Source of the DNA: Marchantia polymorpha subsp. ruderalis | Taxonomy: Eukaryota; Streptophyta; Marchantiopsida; Marchantiales; Marchantiaceae | Assembly (NCBI GenBank): GCA_037833965.1 | Contig: AP031351.1 | Coordinates: forward strand, 6,708,501 to 6,772,500 | Length of the DNA: 64,000 nt | Direction: 5' to 3' | Part shown: positions 11,386 through 49,264 of the stretch, one piece after another | Layout of the letters: every line of letters begins with the position of its first letter | How positions within the stretch are numbered: position 1 is the stretch's first letter | Made by a program: the position numbers and the translations under genes | Notes under the pieces: model-generated | What the model was told of the DNA's origin: nothing | The model's input: only the letters and a program-made list of their open reading frames with translations | The model's database searches: none

Positions 11386-12687
11386 TGAGCAGATGGACGT
11401 CGTCGGAGATTTTCTTGAGTCTTTCATGAAGGGAGAGGTATTTGTCAAAGTTCCTCCATAGTGGACAGAAGGTGGTAAGGAGACTACCAAGGAATTCATC
11501 TTGCATGCTTTTGAAGGCTCTTTTTGGGCTTAAGCAATCTCCAAAACTCTAGCAAGAAACTCTTTCCAAGTCACTCATCAAGCTTGGCTACAATCCGCTG
11601 TCCCATGATTCATGTGTCTACTACAATGAGAAGACAAAAGTAGCAATTGTCACGTATGTGGATGACATGCTTCATTTGGGTGCCTCAACAAAGGCTATTG
11701 AAGATCTCAAAGCCAAGATCGCCCTTGAATTTGAAGTCGACGACATGGATCTTGCTAAGTACTTTCTTGAAGTGCGTATTACACGTGATTGAAGCAAAGG
11801 CACTATTTCACTCTGCTAGAATGCCTATATCTTGAAGATACTTGATAAATTTGGCATGTTCAAGGCTCGTCTTGTGGATTCTCCAATGGATTGTGGTATG
11901 AAGAATCAAAGGTTTTCAATATTGCTCAAGCCTCAAAGCAAGAGATCGAGTTGTATCAGTCAATGATTGGATCATTGATGTATCTCGCCACTCACACTCG
12001 ACTAGATATCTTGTACACGTGTGGTGTACTATCAAGATTCTTAGTCAATCCGTCCAAAGACCACATGTTGGCAGCCAAGAGAATGTTTCATTACCTGAAA
12101 GGCACTGTCTTCTTAGCAATTAGCTACGGTGGTGAATATGACCATACGGTCAATTCCATGGATATAAAGATGCAAATTCTGCGAGATGTCCTGCAACCTA
12201 TCGTTTGACAACCAGATATTGTTGGTTTTTCTTTGGAGGTATTGTAAATGTCAGATCAAAGCGCTAGTACTGCGTTACCTTGTCCACAACTGAAGCTGAG
12301 TACGTTGCTGCAGCTATGGCATCTCAAGAAGCTACTTGGTTTCGAATTGAAACCAAGTATCGATACAGGATATATCAAAACTTTCGATATATACTCAAGT
12401 ACTTGGGTTACTTCGACAAGAGTGTTCAATCTTCACTGCTTTTGGCTGATAACCAAGGTTGTCTCAAAGTTGCGGAGAACCCTGAGTTGCATCAGAAGAG
12501 CAAGCACATTGAAGTAAAATATCACTATATTCGTGAGCAGTTTGCAAAGAGCAATCTACGACTACAATTTGTGAGATCTGCAGATGAGATTGCAGATGGT
12601 CATACCAAGCCTCTTCCTCCAGCAAAGCACAAGATTTTTGTTCAACAGCTTCACCTCCAGCCTCTCAACTTGACAGAAACAACTTGA
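11386..12687 (+). mobile_element. Ty1/Copia retrotransposon remnant (RT and RNase H)
   Basis: Reverse transcriptase begins near 11386 (QMDVV) and includes ALFGLKQSPK and the catalytic YVDD box at 11655-11666. The connection follows: SMIGSLMYLATHTRLDILYT, then LAAKRMFHYLKGT. RNase H follows with LSTTEAEYVAAAMASQEATWF, the DNQGCLKVA block, KSKHIEVKYHYIREQ and a C-terminal HTKPLPPAKHK. The frame is broken by several stops and shifts (for example the stop near 11789 and the shift near 12150), so it is dead. Integrase, gag and clear LTRs were not found. The RNase H part carries a small palindrome at about 12337-12359 (CTTGGTTTC / GAAACCAAG) next to an apparent insertion in the conserved sequence. 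Confidence 0.88.
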
Positions 12688-42967: not shown

Positions 42968-45007
42968 TTATCCTACACTGCCTTCCAGTTTCAAGCTCAT
43001 AAGCTGGTTCACTTCGGCAGCAAACTCCAAAGGCAATTCATTAAACACATCCCTGCAGAAGCCACCAATTATAGCTGCAACTGCCTTCTCCGCGTCAATT
43101 CCTCTTTGCTGGAAGTAAAAAAGTTGGTCTTCGCCAATTTTTGAAGTACTTGCTTCGTGTTCCACTCGCGCCGTAGGATCCTTCACCTGAGAATCACGTA
43201 TTGCACACAAATGCTCGTTAAGTTGGTTTCCTGGAACGAGATCACAGACCGCGCGACGTTCTCCTAGTCAAATTGAATTACACGAAAAGAGATTACTCTA
43301 ACTGGTGGACGAGGATGAGACAACAAGGGTAAAAACTGACGAGTGGTGCCAATGACTGCTTCTCAGATGCTGGTGAGTGTTATAACTAAAACATTAGGTT
43401 CATTAAGAAGTAACGAGCACGAATGTCTCGTGCAGAGTCTATAGGCAGTACCGACACCACAGGGAGAAACATACCTGGATGTAAGGGTAAGTGTTCGCTC
43501 CAGCTTCGTCTCCAATCAGCATAGAATCACACTGAGAAAAGTTCCTGGCATTGTGAGCAGTTGGCTGGACCTGTACCAGACCTCTGTAACAATTTACAGA
43601 ACGACCTGCAGATATTCCCTTCGAGACAATACGGCTCTTTGTGTTCTTGCCCACATGGATCATCTTCGTCCCTGTATCAGCCTGTTGCATGTTGTTCGTC
43701 AAAGCAACGGAGTAAAACTCCCCAACTGAGTTATCGCCCTTCAAAACTACACTAGGATACTTCCATGTGATTGCTGACCCAGTTTCAACTTGGGTCCAGG
43801 ATATCTTAGAGCTCTTGCCGTCGCACAAACCCCTCTTAGTGACAAAGTTGTAGATTCCTCCAACACCCTGCTCGTTTCCCGCGTACCAATTTTGGACAGT
43901 GGAGTACTTAATTTCTGCACCTTCCCCACAGTAAAGCTCCACCACAGCCGCATGCAGCTGATTCTTGTCGTACGATGGTGCAGTACACCCCTCTAAGTAG
44001 CTCACAAAACTCCGGTCGTCGGCGATTATCAGCGTTCGCTCAAATTGGCCAGTTTCCATAGCATTGATTCGAAAGTATGTTGAAATCTCCATGGGTGACA
44101 CAGTATCTTTGGGGATGTAGCAGAAGGAACCATCACTGAACACGGCGGAGTTCAGTGCAGCGTAGTAATTGTCAGCGACAGGCACGACCTTTCCTAGGTA
44201 CTTTTTAATAAGATCAGGGTATTCCCGGATAGCCTCTGAGATAGAACAAAAAATTACACCCGAGGCCATGAGAGTTTTCCTGTGAGTGGTGGCAATGGAA
44301 ACACTGTCGAACACTGCATCCACAGCAACATTCGCGAGTCGCTTTTGCTCTGTGATCGGAATTCCTAGCTTCTCGAACGTTTCTAGAAGATCTGGATCGA
44401 CTTCGTCAAGACTGGCCTTCTTCTCTTTTTGCTTGGGTTCCGAATAGTAGCAAATATCTTGAAAATCGATAGTCGGATATCGGTTGTCTGACCAGGTCGG
44501 CTCCTTCATCTTCAGCCACTGCCTAAAAGCAGACAAGCGAAATTGCAGCATCCACTCTGGTTCTTTCTTCTTCGCAGAGATAAACCGCACTGTATCTTCG
44601 GACAAACCCTTGGGAATGGAGTCCGACTCGATATTTGAAACAAAGCCCCATTTGTAATCCCTTTTCAGAAACTCCTGTACGGTGTCATCACTGGAACTGG
44701 TGGTCTTAACAACTGCAGGGGGCCTGTCCATCACAGCCGCATCACTTCCATCCTTTCCAGGAGCTGCATCGCATCTCACTCCCACAACACCGGCCGCGAA
44801 TTTCCTGTTGCCAGCCCACGGTCCAGAATGCAGCCTGGCTTCAAATCCAGCAGCAGAGCCCAATCCTGCACCGCGGAGGAACCCCAACCTGGAGCATCCA
44901 TTGGCTCCTTCCACGCCCTTACCATCGCTGTTGCATCTCGATGATTTCGCACCAGCTATGGCTGTGGCCGCGGCTGCTCCTCCAAATGGCAACGCCACGG
45001 AAGTCAT
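42968..45007 (-). CDS. SUFB: chloroplast Fe-S cluster scaffold subunit SUFB, two exons
   Basis: Subunit of the plastid SUFBC2D scaffold that assembles iron-sulfur clusters in the stroma. Exon 1 is 45007-43475 and exon 2 is 43186-42968 (TAA), joined in phase 0 across a 288-bp GT-AG intron inside the conserved [20 protein letters not shown] block. The product is 583 residues. The first 80 or so are rich in Ala, Ser and Gly, an apparent transit peptide. The SufB N-terminal block ([20 protein letters not shown]) and the SufBD beta-helix core follow, including [46 protein letters not shown] and [14 protein letters not shown]. The end is [19 protein letters not shown], the normal terminus of the family. 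No lesions are seen, so the gene looks functional. The start chosen is the ATG at 45007, which gives a full transit peptide. Confidence 0.96.
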
Positions 45008-45930
45008 AATCCTAGAGCTGCTCCCAGTTCTCTTCCTCCGACCTTCGCTCTTCCGTCTTTATTTCTCGCTCTGCTCCCACACACCGTCGAAATTGCCCTC
45101 TTCTCTTCCTCGGCCTCGTGCAACCTCGAACCAGAAACAATTCCTCGACACGATTCCTCGACACTACGATTCTATCCGCCTCTCGCTGCTCCTCTGAGTA
45201 CGGGAAATTGTCGCGTGTGCCGGTGGCGTGTGCTCTGGACGCCTCGTTGAGCAATCCTCTCCTCCACAGGGTTGGCCAAACTCAAACTGAGCAGCGCAGA
45301 TCTTTCGAGAGTCCAGATTCGCGGCAGAACGTCTTCTACCCCCTGCGGCGCAGACCACCGCTGATGCGGCAGCGGCCGCAGTGCCGCGGCGTGGGGCCTC
45401 GATGACGATCGACGGCTTGCTGCCGTCTCTACCAACTTTGCGGCGTCGACGAGCCGGACTGCGATTGACGCACGGAGGCAAGTCTCCGGGGATGACGCAT
45501 GCGACGTCCGAGGGATATGCCACAGCGAATGAACCGCTGCTACCGCTTCTTGCCAGCGTTGGTGTGCCTATTGGCCGTTCAGCTCGGAGTCGTAGATAGA
45601 ATTCTAGATATGTTCATGTTCCCGACTTCCCCCTTCGTGGCCCGGTGCCGAATCTGCCTCCACTGAACCGCGACTGTGCACCGCGACCACGTCATTACCA
45701 CGTTCTTTGTCAACAGCATTGTCCATCGTACTCCGTACCCTGCCTTCCTCTCTCGGTTCCCACCTGCATCGTTGAACGGAGGAACGTCTTCCTTCGTCGA
45801 CCTCCTTATTCTTCTCATGCGTACTGTACTACGGGGAATACTGGGTGGGCAGCTTTGATTAAGTGAGAAGGGAGACGCATGGAACAAATGCGCGACTGTC
45901 TGTTCAGGGCCTTCCATGGATTTCCATAAT
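45008..45930 (-). promoter_or_regulatory. SUFB promoter and 5' UTR region
   Basis: GC-rich DNA directly upstream of SUFB, falling to AT-rich DNA near 45930. Frames on both strands (for example 45164-45523 minus and 45381-45599 plus) are Arg/Ala-rich and unrelated to known domains. No clear TATA box was found. A divergent gene sharing this promoter cannot be excluded, but no coding support exists. Confidence 0.5.
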
Positions 45931-47308
45931 ATTTTTTAAGTCGTGACAATTCATAAATTTAGAGCCATTATACAAAAGCACTGCATTGTTTTCACCCTAA
46001 CACACTAATACATCATCCTTCATATTTTATTCGTTCCCGCTTTCCATTTTTACAATATTATCTTTTAGTCTCTTCAAACCAATGATTGAGTACAAATTGC
46101 TGAAAATATTATATTATAACCTGCGTCCGAATGCATCAATATGATGAGACGTTCGTATATGAGACTAAGAGGGCTTGTATAGTTGACATTATGCAGGTTG
46201 CAAGTTTTGCTTCTACGCATATACTGATTTTAGCCTCTGTACCTTCCCCGTCTCTTATCCAGCGGCGAAACCTGAGCAAATCATCTTATGTCTAAGTTGC
46301 ATCCATGTTGACTCCCTTCCATACTCTCCTTGTTTTATCTTCCTTCCCGGTTCACATTAGACTTGCCAGTACTCTCGCACGAACCCATGGATGGTAATCG
46401 TTGCTGTTTGTATGTGAATAGATTACTCCACCGACGACCGTGCACTGAAAACTATATTTAGGAAAACCAAACGTTATGTTTCATGCCATCAATTTCATCC
46501 TGGGAAATTATGTCGGTAGAATGTAAATATGGCAAACTCGTGAGAATCAGGTTATGAAGGGATTTATTGTATACTTACTGTATGCAATGTACAATTCCTC
46601 ATATGCAGACATTTGTCTTCTAATGAGATTTTATTCGTTAAATGAAAGTAGAACCATCGGAAAACTGAACTGCAGGACAAACTTAGTCAACTTCAGGGTT
46701 GAAACTTGAAATGAGTCCTTTCCCCGCTTTATTCTTTGATGGGACCTCGAAGTTGAAATTGCTAATGCATATGATAATATTAATGTGACGCATTGTATAC
46801 TTACAGCCGTGGATTTACAATCACACTACTTTTGTTTCTTCTTGATTTTACATCAAACATATAATTGATTGACATGCAATTAACAAGTTGAGAATAGGCT
46901 TTGTGTACAATAATTTCGCGGAGAGTGTAATTATGGCTCACTTAGTGCTAAATAGCCCTCATTCTCTATGTAGAATTATCTAATTGATACATGAAGGGTA
47001 ATAGAGGGTCTTGGATGAGTAGCAACTACTTCCAATATAGAATGTTCAACCAATCAGAGACACTTCGTCTCTGATTTTTTTCTTATTATTTTTTTCTATA
47101 TGATTTTCTTATTGGAATCATTGGTCCAAGAGCTATGGGAGATAGGATACGGGTTGAAGTGCGGGTTAACCCTAGGATTAACCTGGATGAGACCCATAAA
47201 CCCATTCCATCTCGCCCGAACAGGTTATCCACACTAAGTGCCTATGGTTCCGTTGGTCTAAAATTTTAGGACTTTACAATTTCAGGTACCCGGTAAAACA
47301 AACAAACT
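45931..47308. other. intergenic DNA without recognised features
   Basis: AT-rich and non-coding. The only structured item is a 10-bp hairpin with 5-nt loop at 47052-47076 (AATCAGAGAC / GTCTCTGATT) followed by a T run. Confidence 0.5.
47052..47076 (+). repeat. perfect 10-bp hairpin followed by T-run
   Basis: AATCAGAGAC, loop ACTTC, GTCTCTGATT, then TTTT. It looks like a bacterial terminator but lies in plant intergenic DNA, so no such function is implied. Confidence 0.8.
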
Positions 47309-47310
47309 TA

Positions 47311-47334
47311 CAGTAAAGCCCCCGCTAAGTTATA
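47311..47334 (+). repeat. left terminal inverted repeat of the pogo element
   Basis: 24 bp starting CAGTAAAGCCCCCG, preceded by the TA target site. Confidence 0.93.
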
Positions 47335-47524
47335 ACCCCTCGTAAGTTATCAAAAATTTACGGAACAAACATCGTTCTATGGGGACTAAGTTATAAAGCA
47401 TAAGTTATGTACTCAATGACCAAAATAACTTTTTAGAGGTTTTTTATTACTGCTTAAGCCAGCCATCGAGCGTCGCTTGTTGGAGATTTTCGAATCGAAT
47501 GGTACTTTGGATTCTACGTAGCTG

Positions 47525-48978
47525 TCAATGTACTTGGTGCTCCACAGGATCCGCTGGATTTAACATTGAAATCACCACGGATAACCCTTTTAGCTTTTCA
47601 GCACGTGTAAGTTGTGCTGGTTCCTCCTCCTCAGGGTCTCCAATGGATGGGTTATTCTCCTGGCCAGTGACAAGGTTCGCGATCTCCTCGTCATTCAGAA
47701 ACATATGCTCCACACCGCTTTCCTCGATCGGATTCAACAGCGATGCAATTGACATTGGATCCCGCAAAGGTAACCTGTGTAGAGCATCCGTGAGCTCTTC
47801 CTCGACCTGCTCCTCTTCTAAAAACGCCCGACGGTCGTCTTCTACAGCCTCGAACAATCCTGTGCGGCGAAAGCAGTTCTCGATTGTCTGCTGCGATATT
47901 TCGTTTCATGATGCGAGGCACCACCTCATTGCGGTAAGTTGATCAACTTTGTAGAGGTTGACCTCATTCTTCTCATCACGATCCAATGCATTTTGCAAGT
48001 GGAAGCGTTGGTAATGTCTCTTGAAAGCAGCGATAATCTCGGTGTCCATGGGCTGAATCTTTGACGTCGTGTTTGGCGGCAGTGGGCATACTTCAACATT
48101 TGGAGTTTGTCACTCATCAGTGATATGTGAATGTGCATTGTCCATCAACAGCAAGATGTGGCGATTTGCGGCACGCATCTCTGCATCAAAGCGCTTTAAC
48201 CACTCTTGGAAAAACATCCCAGTCATCCAGGCTTTTTTTTTTGCTTAGTAATAAAATCCAAGCTGTTCGCTAGTTTTGCGATTGAAGCAACGAGGTTTCT
48301 GGGCGTGTCCAATGAAAAATGACGGCAGTTTGTGAGACCCATTGGAATTTGCAGTGAGTGCGAGAATGATCTTGGTTTTGTCCTTTTAGAACCAGCAATA
48401 CGTTGTTGGACAATTGTCGTATCTGGCACCATACTATAAAAAAGGCCCGTTTCGTCCATATTGTAGACATCTTCCGGATTGAAGGCAGCGATACGGGCCC
48501 GTAATGCTGGCATTGCCGCTTCGATCGCATCATCATCGACTGATCCGGCTTCACCATGGATTTTAAAGCTCTTTAGTTTGTTGCGGAACAGGAACTTATA
48601 CAGCCATCCATTTGAAAATTTGATGATGCCTTCAAGTATTTTAAGTATTTTTGCAAATCGTTGACCTTGCGCTTTGATGAGATCGTACGTAATGAAGACA
48701 TTCCGATGCTGGCACTGCAGGACCCAGAGTGAAAGTGCTTCTTCAAGATCGGGAAAATTCACGGTTCTCGGCCTTTTCGCGTGAAGCTCGTATTCATCCA
48801 TTAGCTCATAATCATGCTTCTTCTTTAGAATCTTGCTAATGATGACTTGCGATGGTGCCGTTGTAAGCCCAAATTTTCCCTTGGTCCATGCTGCAACTTC
48901 TGCATGCGACAACAAAATGTTGGCTTCCTTATATTTAGAAATTTGAAGGCGTTGCTCATAGGTGAAGCGTGGTGCCAT
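47525..48978 (-). pseudogene. pogo/Tigger transposase, frameshift plus stops
   Basis: Starts at ATG 48978 with an N-terminal Psq-type helix-turn-helix (FTYEQRLQISKYKE), then a CENP-B-type DNA-binding domain (EEALSLWVLQCQHRN...SNGWLYKFLFRN). The DDE_1 catalytic domain follows. The three acidic positions are all Asp, as in pogo: NMDETGLFY (codon 48454-48456), LLMDNAHSH (48140-48142) and QPMDTEII (48044-48046). An acidic C-terminal region with a DPEEEEPAQLTRAEKL block ends at 47525. Lesions: a one-base loss near 48381 after SKRTK, and in-frame stops in the FYY-stop-AKKKAW, ITDE-stop and LAS-stop contexts. Full length would be about 485 residues, normal for Tigger transposases. The catalytic triad is intact but the protein cannot be made in one piece. 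Confidence 0.92.
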
Positions 48979-49238
48979 GCTGCTGCCGATGAAAATAGTA
49001 GATGAGCAAGGAGTGCGAAGAAAAGCTGAGTGAAGGGGCGAAGAGCTGAGAACGAAGAATTGGGAAGAGGGGTAGAAGGGCGAGGGAGTGCGAGGAGCGA
49101 GCTTCTAATATTACACTGCCTAGATGACGTACATAGTCAAAATGCACTTAGGGTTTAGGGTTGGCTGATTGGCTACGGTACATACCTCCCAAAACTTATA
49201 ACCTCCCGTAAGTTATCAAAATCCCCTTCCACCGAGGC

Positions 49239-49262
49239 TATAACTTATCGGGGGTTTTACTG
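49239..49262 (-). repeat. right terminal inverted repeat of the pogo element
   Basis: Read on the minus strand it starts CAGTAAAACCCCCG. It differs from the left repeat at two positions and is followed on the plus strand by TA. Confidence 0.93.
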
Positions 49263-49264
49263 TA

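Follow-up and report, generated by a model that had tools for sequence, protein, structure and literature searches.

The locus lies in a stretch of 64,000 nucleotides of the liverwort Marchantia polymorpha subsp. ruderalis (hereafter the 64-kb window). Positions 47311–49262 of this window hold a complete DNA transposon of the pogo superfamily, 1,952 bp long and with both ends present. Its terminal inverted repeats, CAGTAAAGCCCCCGCTAAGTTATA on the left (47311–47334, plus strand, the 3' end of the coding strand) and its counterpart on the right (49239–49262, minus strand, the 5' end of the coding strand), agree in 22 of 24 positions, and TA target sites, read directly from the sequence, flank them (47309–47310 and 49263–49264). 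The initial annotation had reported the same repeats and target sites, and re-measurement returned identical values. With up to three mismatches allowed, the right-hand 24-mer occurs twice in the window versus 0/100 shuffles. The 8-mer ATAACTTA is clustered in the left subterminal region (47326–47408, minus strand; units, on the coding strand, at 47326–47333, 47343–47350, 47387–47394 and 47401–47408), and subterminal TAAGTTAT/ATAACTTA copies are also found at the right end (49209–49247; units 49240–49247 and 49209–49216). The whole window contains TAAGTTAT or its complement 10 times, six of them inside the element. These subterminal repeats are candidate transposase-binding sites.

A broken transposase gene of about 510 codons occupies 47447–48978 on the minus strand, from an ATG at 48978 to a TAA (47449–47447) that is the likely natural stop. 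Two domains were recognized on separate open pieces of this gene, both on the minus strand: a CENP-B-type HTH_Tnp_Tc5 DNA-binding domain (48568–48756, E=2.1e-12) and DDE_1 (E=5.3e-11), the latter matched at 47870–48376 with 147.3 bits and 3 in-frame stops in the genome profile search. All three catalytic Asp codons survive (48454–48456, 48140–48142 and 48044–48046), the second and the third being 32 codons apart, that is, with 31 residues between them (DD31D). A nearly full-length transposase with its catalytic Asp codons, as first described, is what we located; as for its decay, the single frameshift (at about 48.38 kb) stands, while the three stops reported earlier have to be replaced by four premature ones, all after the frameshift (48247–48245, 48112–48110, 47908–47906 and 47527–47525). 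The window copy cannot encode a complete transposase by itself.

Several features of the surroundings deserve a brief comment. The element sits approximately 2.25 kb upstream of a SufB-like Fe-S cluster assembly gene (43439–45058, minus strand; SUFBD_core, 2.2e-57). Farther away, an ORF on the plus strand (12268–12687) resembles by eye the RNase H end of a Copia retrotransposon and has no Pfam match. A piece of about 50 bp in the left flank of the element (47012–47061) recurs at 13 other sites of the genome with 84–93% identity and reads as a short dispersed repeat or a MITE end. When the unoccupied site of the window copy was sought in the same genome, 18 matches were obtained and none was an empty duplicate: two were the element's own flanks and the other 16 were no longer than 130 bp. 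Since no empty site was found in the genome, we infer the insertion of the window copy from its TA sites and from flanks that vary between the family members.

The element is not alone in its genome (241,466,482 bases in 9 contigs). A DNA search with the whole element gave 10 matches. The window family consists of seven complete copies and a partial one, distributed over 6 of the 9 contigs; two further matches are weak (65 and 68%), and one of them overlaps L042, a locus of a related lineage. The six other complete copies are 93–95% identical to the window copy, whereas the partial copy, L008, reaches 90% over 854 query bases; only one of its ends is clear, the other being doubtful. Complete copies measure 1,938–1,967 bp, their flanks differ from each other, and six of the seven are bordered by TA/TA, L002 having TG/TG instead. 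TAAGTTAT or its complement occurs 6–7 times in each of them, grouped at both ends; a 15-bp subterminal unit of the left end is present once less in the window copy, its second unit being kept in 6/6 other complete copies. A 26-base end pattern (up to three mismatches) was matched 15 times genome-wide versus 0 times in the backwards control, and these 15 matches comprise both ends of every complete copy (14) plus one end of L008. As all of them belong to the 8 copies, this pattern search found no short derivatives (MITEs) with window-family ends. The copies L002 (G000:C8:12002561-12004504) and L007 (G000:C8:12073492-12075417) are separated by about 70 kb, share their orientation and have different flanks, possibly as the outcome of a local hop. 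The search for terminal repeats and copies that the initial annotation had proposed thus revealed relatives of the window copy. Its further expectation, that intact relatives may exist, fails within this family: on the coding strand, open frames in L001–L007 extend to at most 293, 244, 245, 294, 153, 172 and 268 aa, respectively, and none of the seven complete copies could make a full protein in this assembly.

The divergence among the copies is informative about their history. Pairwise K2P values within the family lie between 0.045 and 0.065, which makes the family moderately recent, in line with the fairly recent activity proposed at the outset. Each complete copy carries 26–45 changes of its own, while the shared columns number 52, so that the divergence is star-like. 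Where phasing of the frame was possible, copy-specific changes are distributed over codon positions 1/2/3 as 52/49/51 and shared ones as 11/9/10. C>T or G>A accounts for 134 of the 248 copy-specific changes. The context of these changes is uneven: C>T was counted at 41/158 CHG versus 60/537 CHH sites (Fisher p=1.6e-5), with a weak enrichment at CG (33/188, p=0.03 uncorrected), while C>A/G showed no enrichment (CHG 11/158, CG 6/188, CHH 38/537; CHG vs CHH p=1). CHG methylation is a hallmark of plants. Given the star-like divergence, the even use of codon positions and the CHG bias of C>T, a single episode of spread, followed by neutral decay in a plant nucleus, is the most likely history of the copies. 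The same substitution pattern points to silencing of the family by methylation.

That the assembly represents a plant genome follows from 45 matches (among 85 candidates, many of them stop-free) to the chlorophyll a/b-binding (LHC) domain; clusters of such genes, whose domain scores are identical or almost so, lie at about 8.47–9.63 Mb of G000:C8. With copies on most contigs and plant LHC genes in the same assembly, the view of the element as a resident of a plant genome holds, and contamination is very unlikely. Eight of the contigs are 24–33 Mb long and C1 is 5.6 Mb. Near contig ends there are arrays of 5S genes (at least 38 matches, with 47 of 8,200 candidates scored), arranged in steps of 7,797 bp in part of C1 and of about 15.7–17.3 kb elsewhere. 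The only genome match to GAGA_bind (BPC) is located on C1 (1 match from 2 candidates, domain confirmed). The available text of PMC9516144 describes Marchantia as having about 220 Mb in nine chromosomes, with tracts of rDNA terminating the sex chromosomes and with BPC encoded on the U chromosome. The assembly thus has the look of a Marchantia-like liverwort.

Which pogo family does the element belong to? Membership in the superfamily, as originally assigned, is borne out by the inverted repeats with TA, DDE_1 with the DDD triad, and HTH_Tnp_Tc5. For the more specific label, Tigger, we find no such backing. In the accessible part of Gao et al. 2020 (PMC7386202), Lemi elements are characterized by HTH_Tnp_Tc5 alone or with HTH_ABP1_N and by DD29-42D; Tigger and pogoR by CENP-B_N plus HTH_Tnp_Tc5, or the latter alone, with DD29-36D for Tigger; and Fot by DD35D almost always and a mostly TAA target duplication. 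Fot does not match, the window element having DD31D, TA and 24-bp ends as opposed to DD35D, mostly TAA and ends of 40–60 bp, and the DD31D spacing does not match PlantMar (DD39D) or Tc1 (DD34E) either. In the window family, HTH_Tnp_Tc5 scored above its cut-off in 4/4 copies scanned, and the same four copies gave HTH_ABP1_N matches below the separate cut-off of that domain (14.3, 15.0, 21.2 and 19.4 bits versus 22.5); four sibling copies share DD31D. HTH_Tnp_Tc5 with a sub-threshold HTH_ABP1_N and DD31D is a combination that fits Lemi. Across the genome, HTH_ABP1_N gave 8 matches among 43 candidates (E from 9e-5 to 1e-3). Seven frames from the other lineages extend as far as the N-terminus; HTH_ABP1_N was above its cut-off in four of them (L024, L026, L027 and, barely, L034) and below it in L044 of the DD29D sister lineage (19.8 bits), with no match in L048 and L062.

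An alternative scenario would have a Tigger element of the animal type arriving in the plant, and two properties of the window family agree with it: DD31D falls inside the published Tigger range, and HTH_Tnp_Tc5 alone is also known in Tigger. However, none of the four scanned copies contains CENP-B_N, and a genome-wide profile search of moderate sensitivity had no match to it at E<=0.001 among 25 candidates scored, while two of the 14 named genomes used as controls did give a match. Because domains this short are detected with limited sensitivity in a genome search, the missing CENP-B_N is a moderate argument. The N-terminus is instead HTH_ABP1_N-like, at a sub-threshold level in the window family, and the hosts of Tigger given in the accessible text of PMC7386202 are animals and three red algae. 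We thus regard the arrival of an animal-type Tigger as improbable. Judged from sequence, the domain make-up appears to favour, rather than to prove, Lemi over Tigger; it is this make-up, and no phylogeny with named reference elements, that places the family in Lemi. Overall, we consider it highly probable that the window copy is a decayed member of a small resident pogo family, most likely Lemi, in a liverwort genome.

The window family is surrounded by a diverse set of pogo relatives. At least 150 rows above the cut-off were obtained in the DDE_1 profile search of the genome (150 of 340 candidates scored, 150/150 passing), rows being more numerous than copies since some copies are split in two. 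An unrooted tree of 34 rows, all from this genome (30 loci of the DDE_1 search plus four fetched), united six rows of the window family (DD31D) with a sister group of five DD29D rows with a joint support of 98/99. Another 16 rows formed a further group (support 98/96), and L047 (DD42D), L048 (DD32D), L051 and four DD43D rows were distant. In this tree, 11 of 31 inner branches are open and the deeper order is unsure, with a long-branch warning for L051 with the DD43D rows. Two of the lineages, those of L027 and DD43D, combine uninterrupted frames with complete ends, and it is outside the window family that the expected intact relatives do occur; uninterrupted frames are also present in L044 (550 aa) and L048 (562 aa), with no ends found for either.

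The first of these lineages is represented by L027 (G000:C9:10346212-10348327), a Lemi-type element of 2,112 bp whose ends match at 16/16; the scan that located them had TA and a minimum of 13/16 as its conditions. Its 578-aa stop-to-stop frame contains HTH_ABP1_N, HTH_Tnp_Tc5 and DDE_1. Among the solved structures listed at E<=1, the protein matched the DNA-binding part of fission yeast Abp1 (2.6e-10), that of human CENP-B (0.0074) and one unrelated chain (0.52). Genome-wide there are 78 matches to the end pattern of L027, versus one in the backwards control, and these ends pair into 35 elements, of which 33 measure 527–679 bp and two about 2.1 kb, leaving 8 ends unpaired. We compared 11 of the 33 short partners (e.g., L075–L085), which were picked for perfect ends, so that their TA flanks follow from the choice. 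They have in common with L027 a left end of about 209 bp and a right end of about 246 bp (main segments 89–98% identical), their middle of about 200 bp has no match to L027, and their mean mutual difference is 3.3% (2.1–5.0%, 55 pairs). L027 and its short copies would appear to make up an autonomous/MITE-like pair.

The DD43D lineage has two copies of 3.3 kb, L062/L067/L069 (G000:C6:30035534-30038836) and L063/L068/L070 (G000:C4:22060205-22063415), which are 99.5% identical over 3,096 bp and have different flanks. Each has a stop-to-stop frame of 634 codons (576 from the first ATG) and an inverted repeat of 25 bp, TA included. The DD43D end pattern was found 344 times genome-wide versus 0 in the control. 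Since the seven short copies examined are only about 80–88% identical to the DD43D ends, such copies would be older or derived from a sister element.

To the directly observed ends, TA, domains, triad, copy set and decay pattern, we would add the following life cycle of the window family. Its single-ORF transposase, when functional, would have bound the TAAGTTAT subterminal repeats and the inverted repeats via the N-terminal HTH region, and the DDD triad would have cut at the element ends, presumably by cut-and-paste chemistry, with insertion at TA and duplication of the TA. One amplification would have produced at least 8 copies, which would then have accumulated changes neutrally, C>T being driven by methylation.

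Where such a family came from is a separate matter. It might have arrived horizontally from a fungus, recently or long ago, and then undergone one burst in the plant; being about the origin of the family and not its identity, this idea overlaps with the preferred reading of a resident, probably Lemi, family. It finds encouragement in the 32 fungal species from which Lemi is known (PMC7386202, accessible text), in the fungus-to-moss transfer proposed for other Tc1/mariner elements (PMC7466625, likewise in part), and in the few copies with their star-like burst. The presence of the DD29D sister lineage in the same genome speaks against it, however, as does the decay of the copies at CHG sites in plant fashion. 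We deem a fungal arrival possible yet rather unlikely, although several pogo lineages could have arrived separately, so that an old transfer from fungi is still conceivable. Hardly credible, finally, is the notion that the plant kept the transposase as a domesticated gene. The window copy does retain all three catalytic Asp codons, but no complete copy in the family has an unbroken frame, the copy-specific changes lack a codon-position bias, and the window copy still has both ends and the TA. Relatives of the transposase were also sought in IMG/VR (1 and 22 pattern-matching stretches) and in GTDB contigs (42 such stretches), and none was confirmed there by tblastn.

How does this compare with what has been published? 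In the accessible text of Gao et al. 2020 (PMC7386202), land-plant pogo is represented only by Lemi, in 23 eudicots; that of Dupeyron et al. 2020 (PMC7325037) contains a dicot clade and two Selaginella sequences. The moss elements PpTc1 and PpTc2 are DD34E Tc1 elements and not pogo (PMC4054914, available part), and a later moss paper, as far as its available text goes, sought their relatives in Marchantia and reported none (PMC7466625). The same text implies that unrelated mariner-like sequences from Marchantia stand in its tree; as the tree apparently includes some, such sequences are not new to databases. A literature search, made mostly without subscription journals, found no paper announcing a liverwort pogo, which is weak evidence of absence. 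The element itself is of a known kind, and its liverwort host may be the part that is new.

Taken alone, the window copy is a dead transposon of an ordinary sort. The variety of pogo elements in its genome matters modestly, given that the two surveys, in their accessible parts, list only eudicots and Selaginella among land plants. It is tempting to suppose, as a tentative idea that we hold for less probable than not, that liverworts keep a living multi-lineage pogo community, composed of Lemi-type elements that have an intact transposase frame and MITEs as partners, a young DD43D lineage whose ends number in the hundreds, and decayed families like that of the window. If so, pogo would be an old resident of land plants that disappeared or became scarcer in most later lineages or, alternatively, bryophytes would repeatedly acquire pogo from fungi. 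With the liverwort lineages it becomes possible to test how old pogo is in early land plants, whether it was transferred horizontally and whether it is mobile today, and also whether autonomous elements pair with MITEs in plants other than flowering ones.

A pair of this sort, Lemi1/Emigrant of Arabidopsis, was reportedly described by Feschotte and Mouches in 2000. The L027 lineage is similar in that it joins an intact-looking element with short copies having its ends, from which the window family differs by having no short partners. With Tigger, as described in the accessible text of PMC7386202, the window family shares TA, short ends, DDE_1, HTH_Tnp_Tc5 and a spacing inside DD29-36D, but it has a weak HTH_ABP1_N match in place of one to CENP-B_N. 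The Selaginella and dicot pogo sequences (clades 38 and 52 in PMC7325037), known here by description only, are likewise land-plant pogo. Lemi is the closest in its features, with TA, ends of up to 40 bp, HTH_Tnp_Tc5 plus DDE_1 and a spacing within DD29-42D; the likeness is one of description only, and the land-plant hosts in the accessible text are 23 eudicots, whereas the host here is a liverwort.
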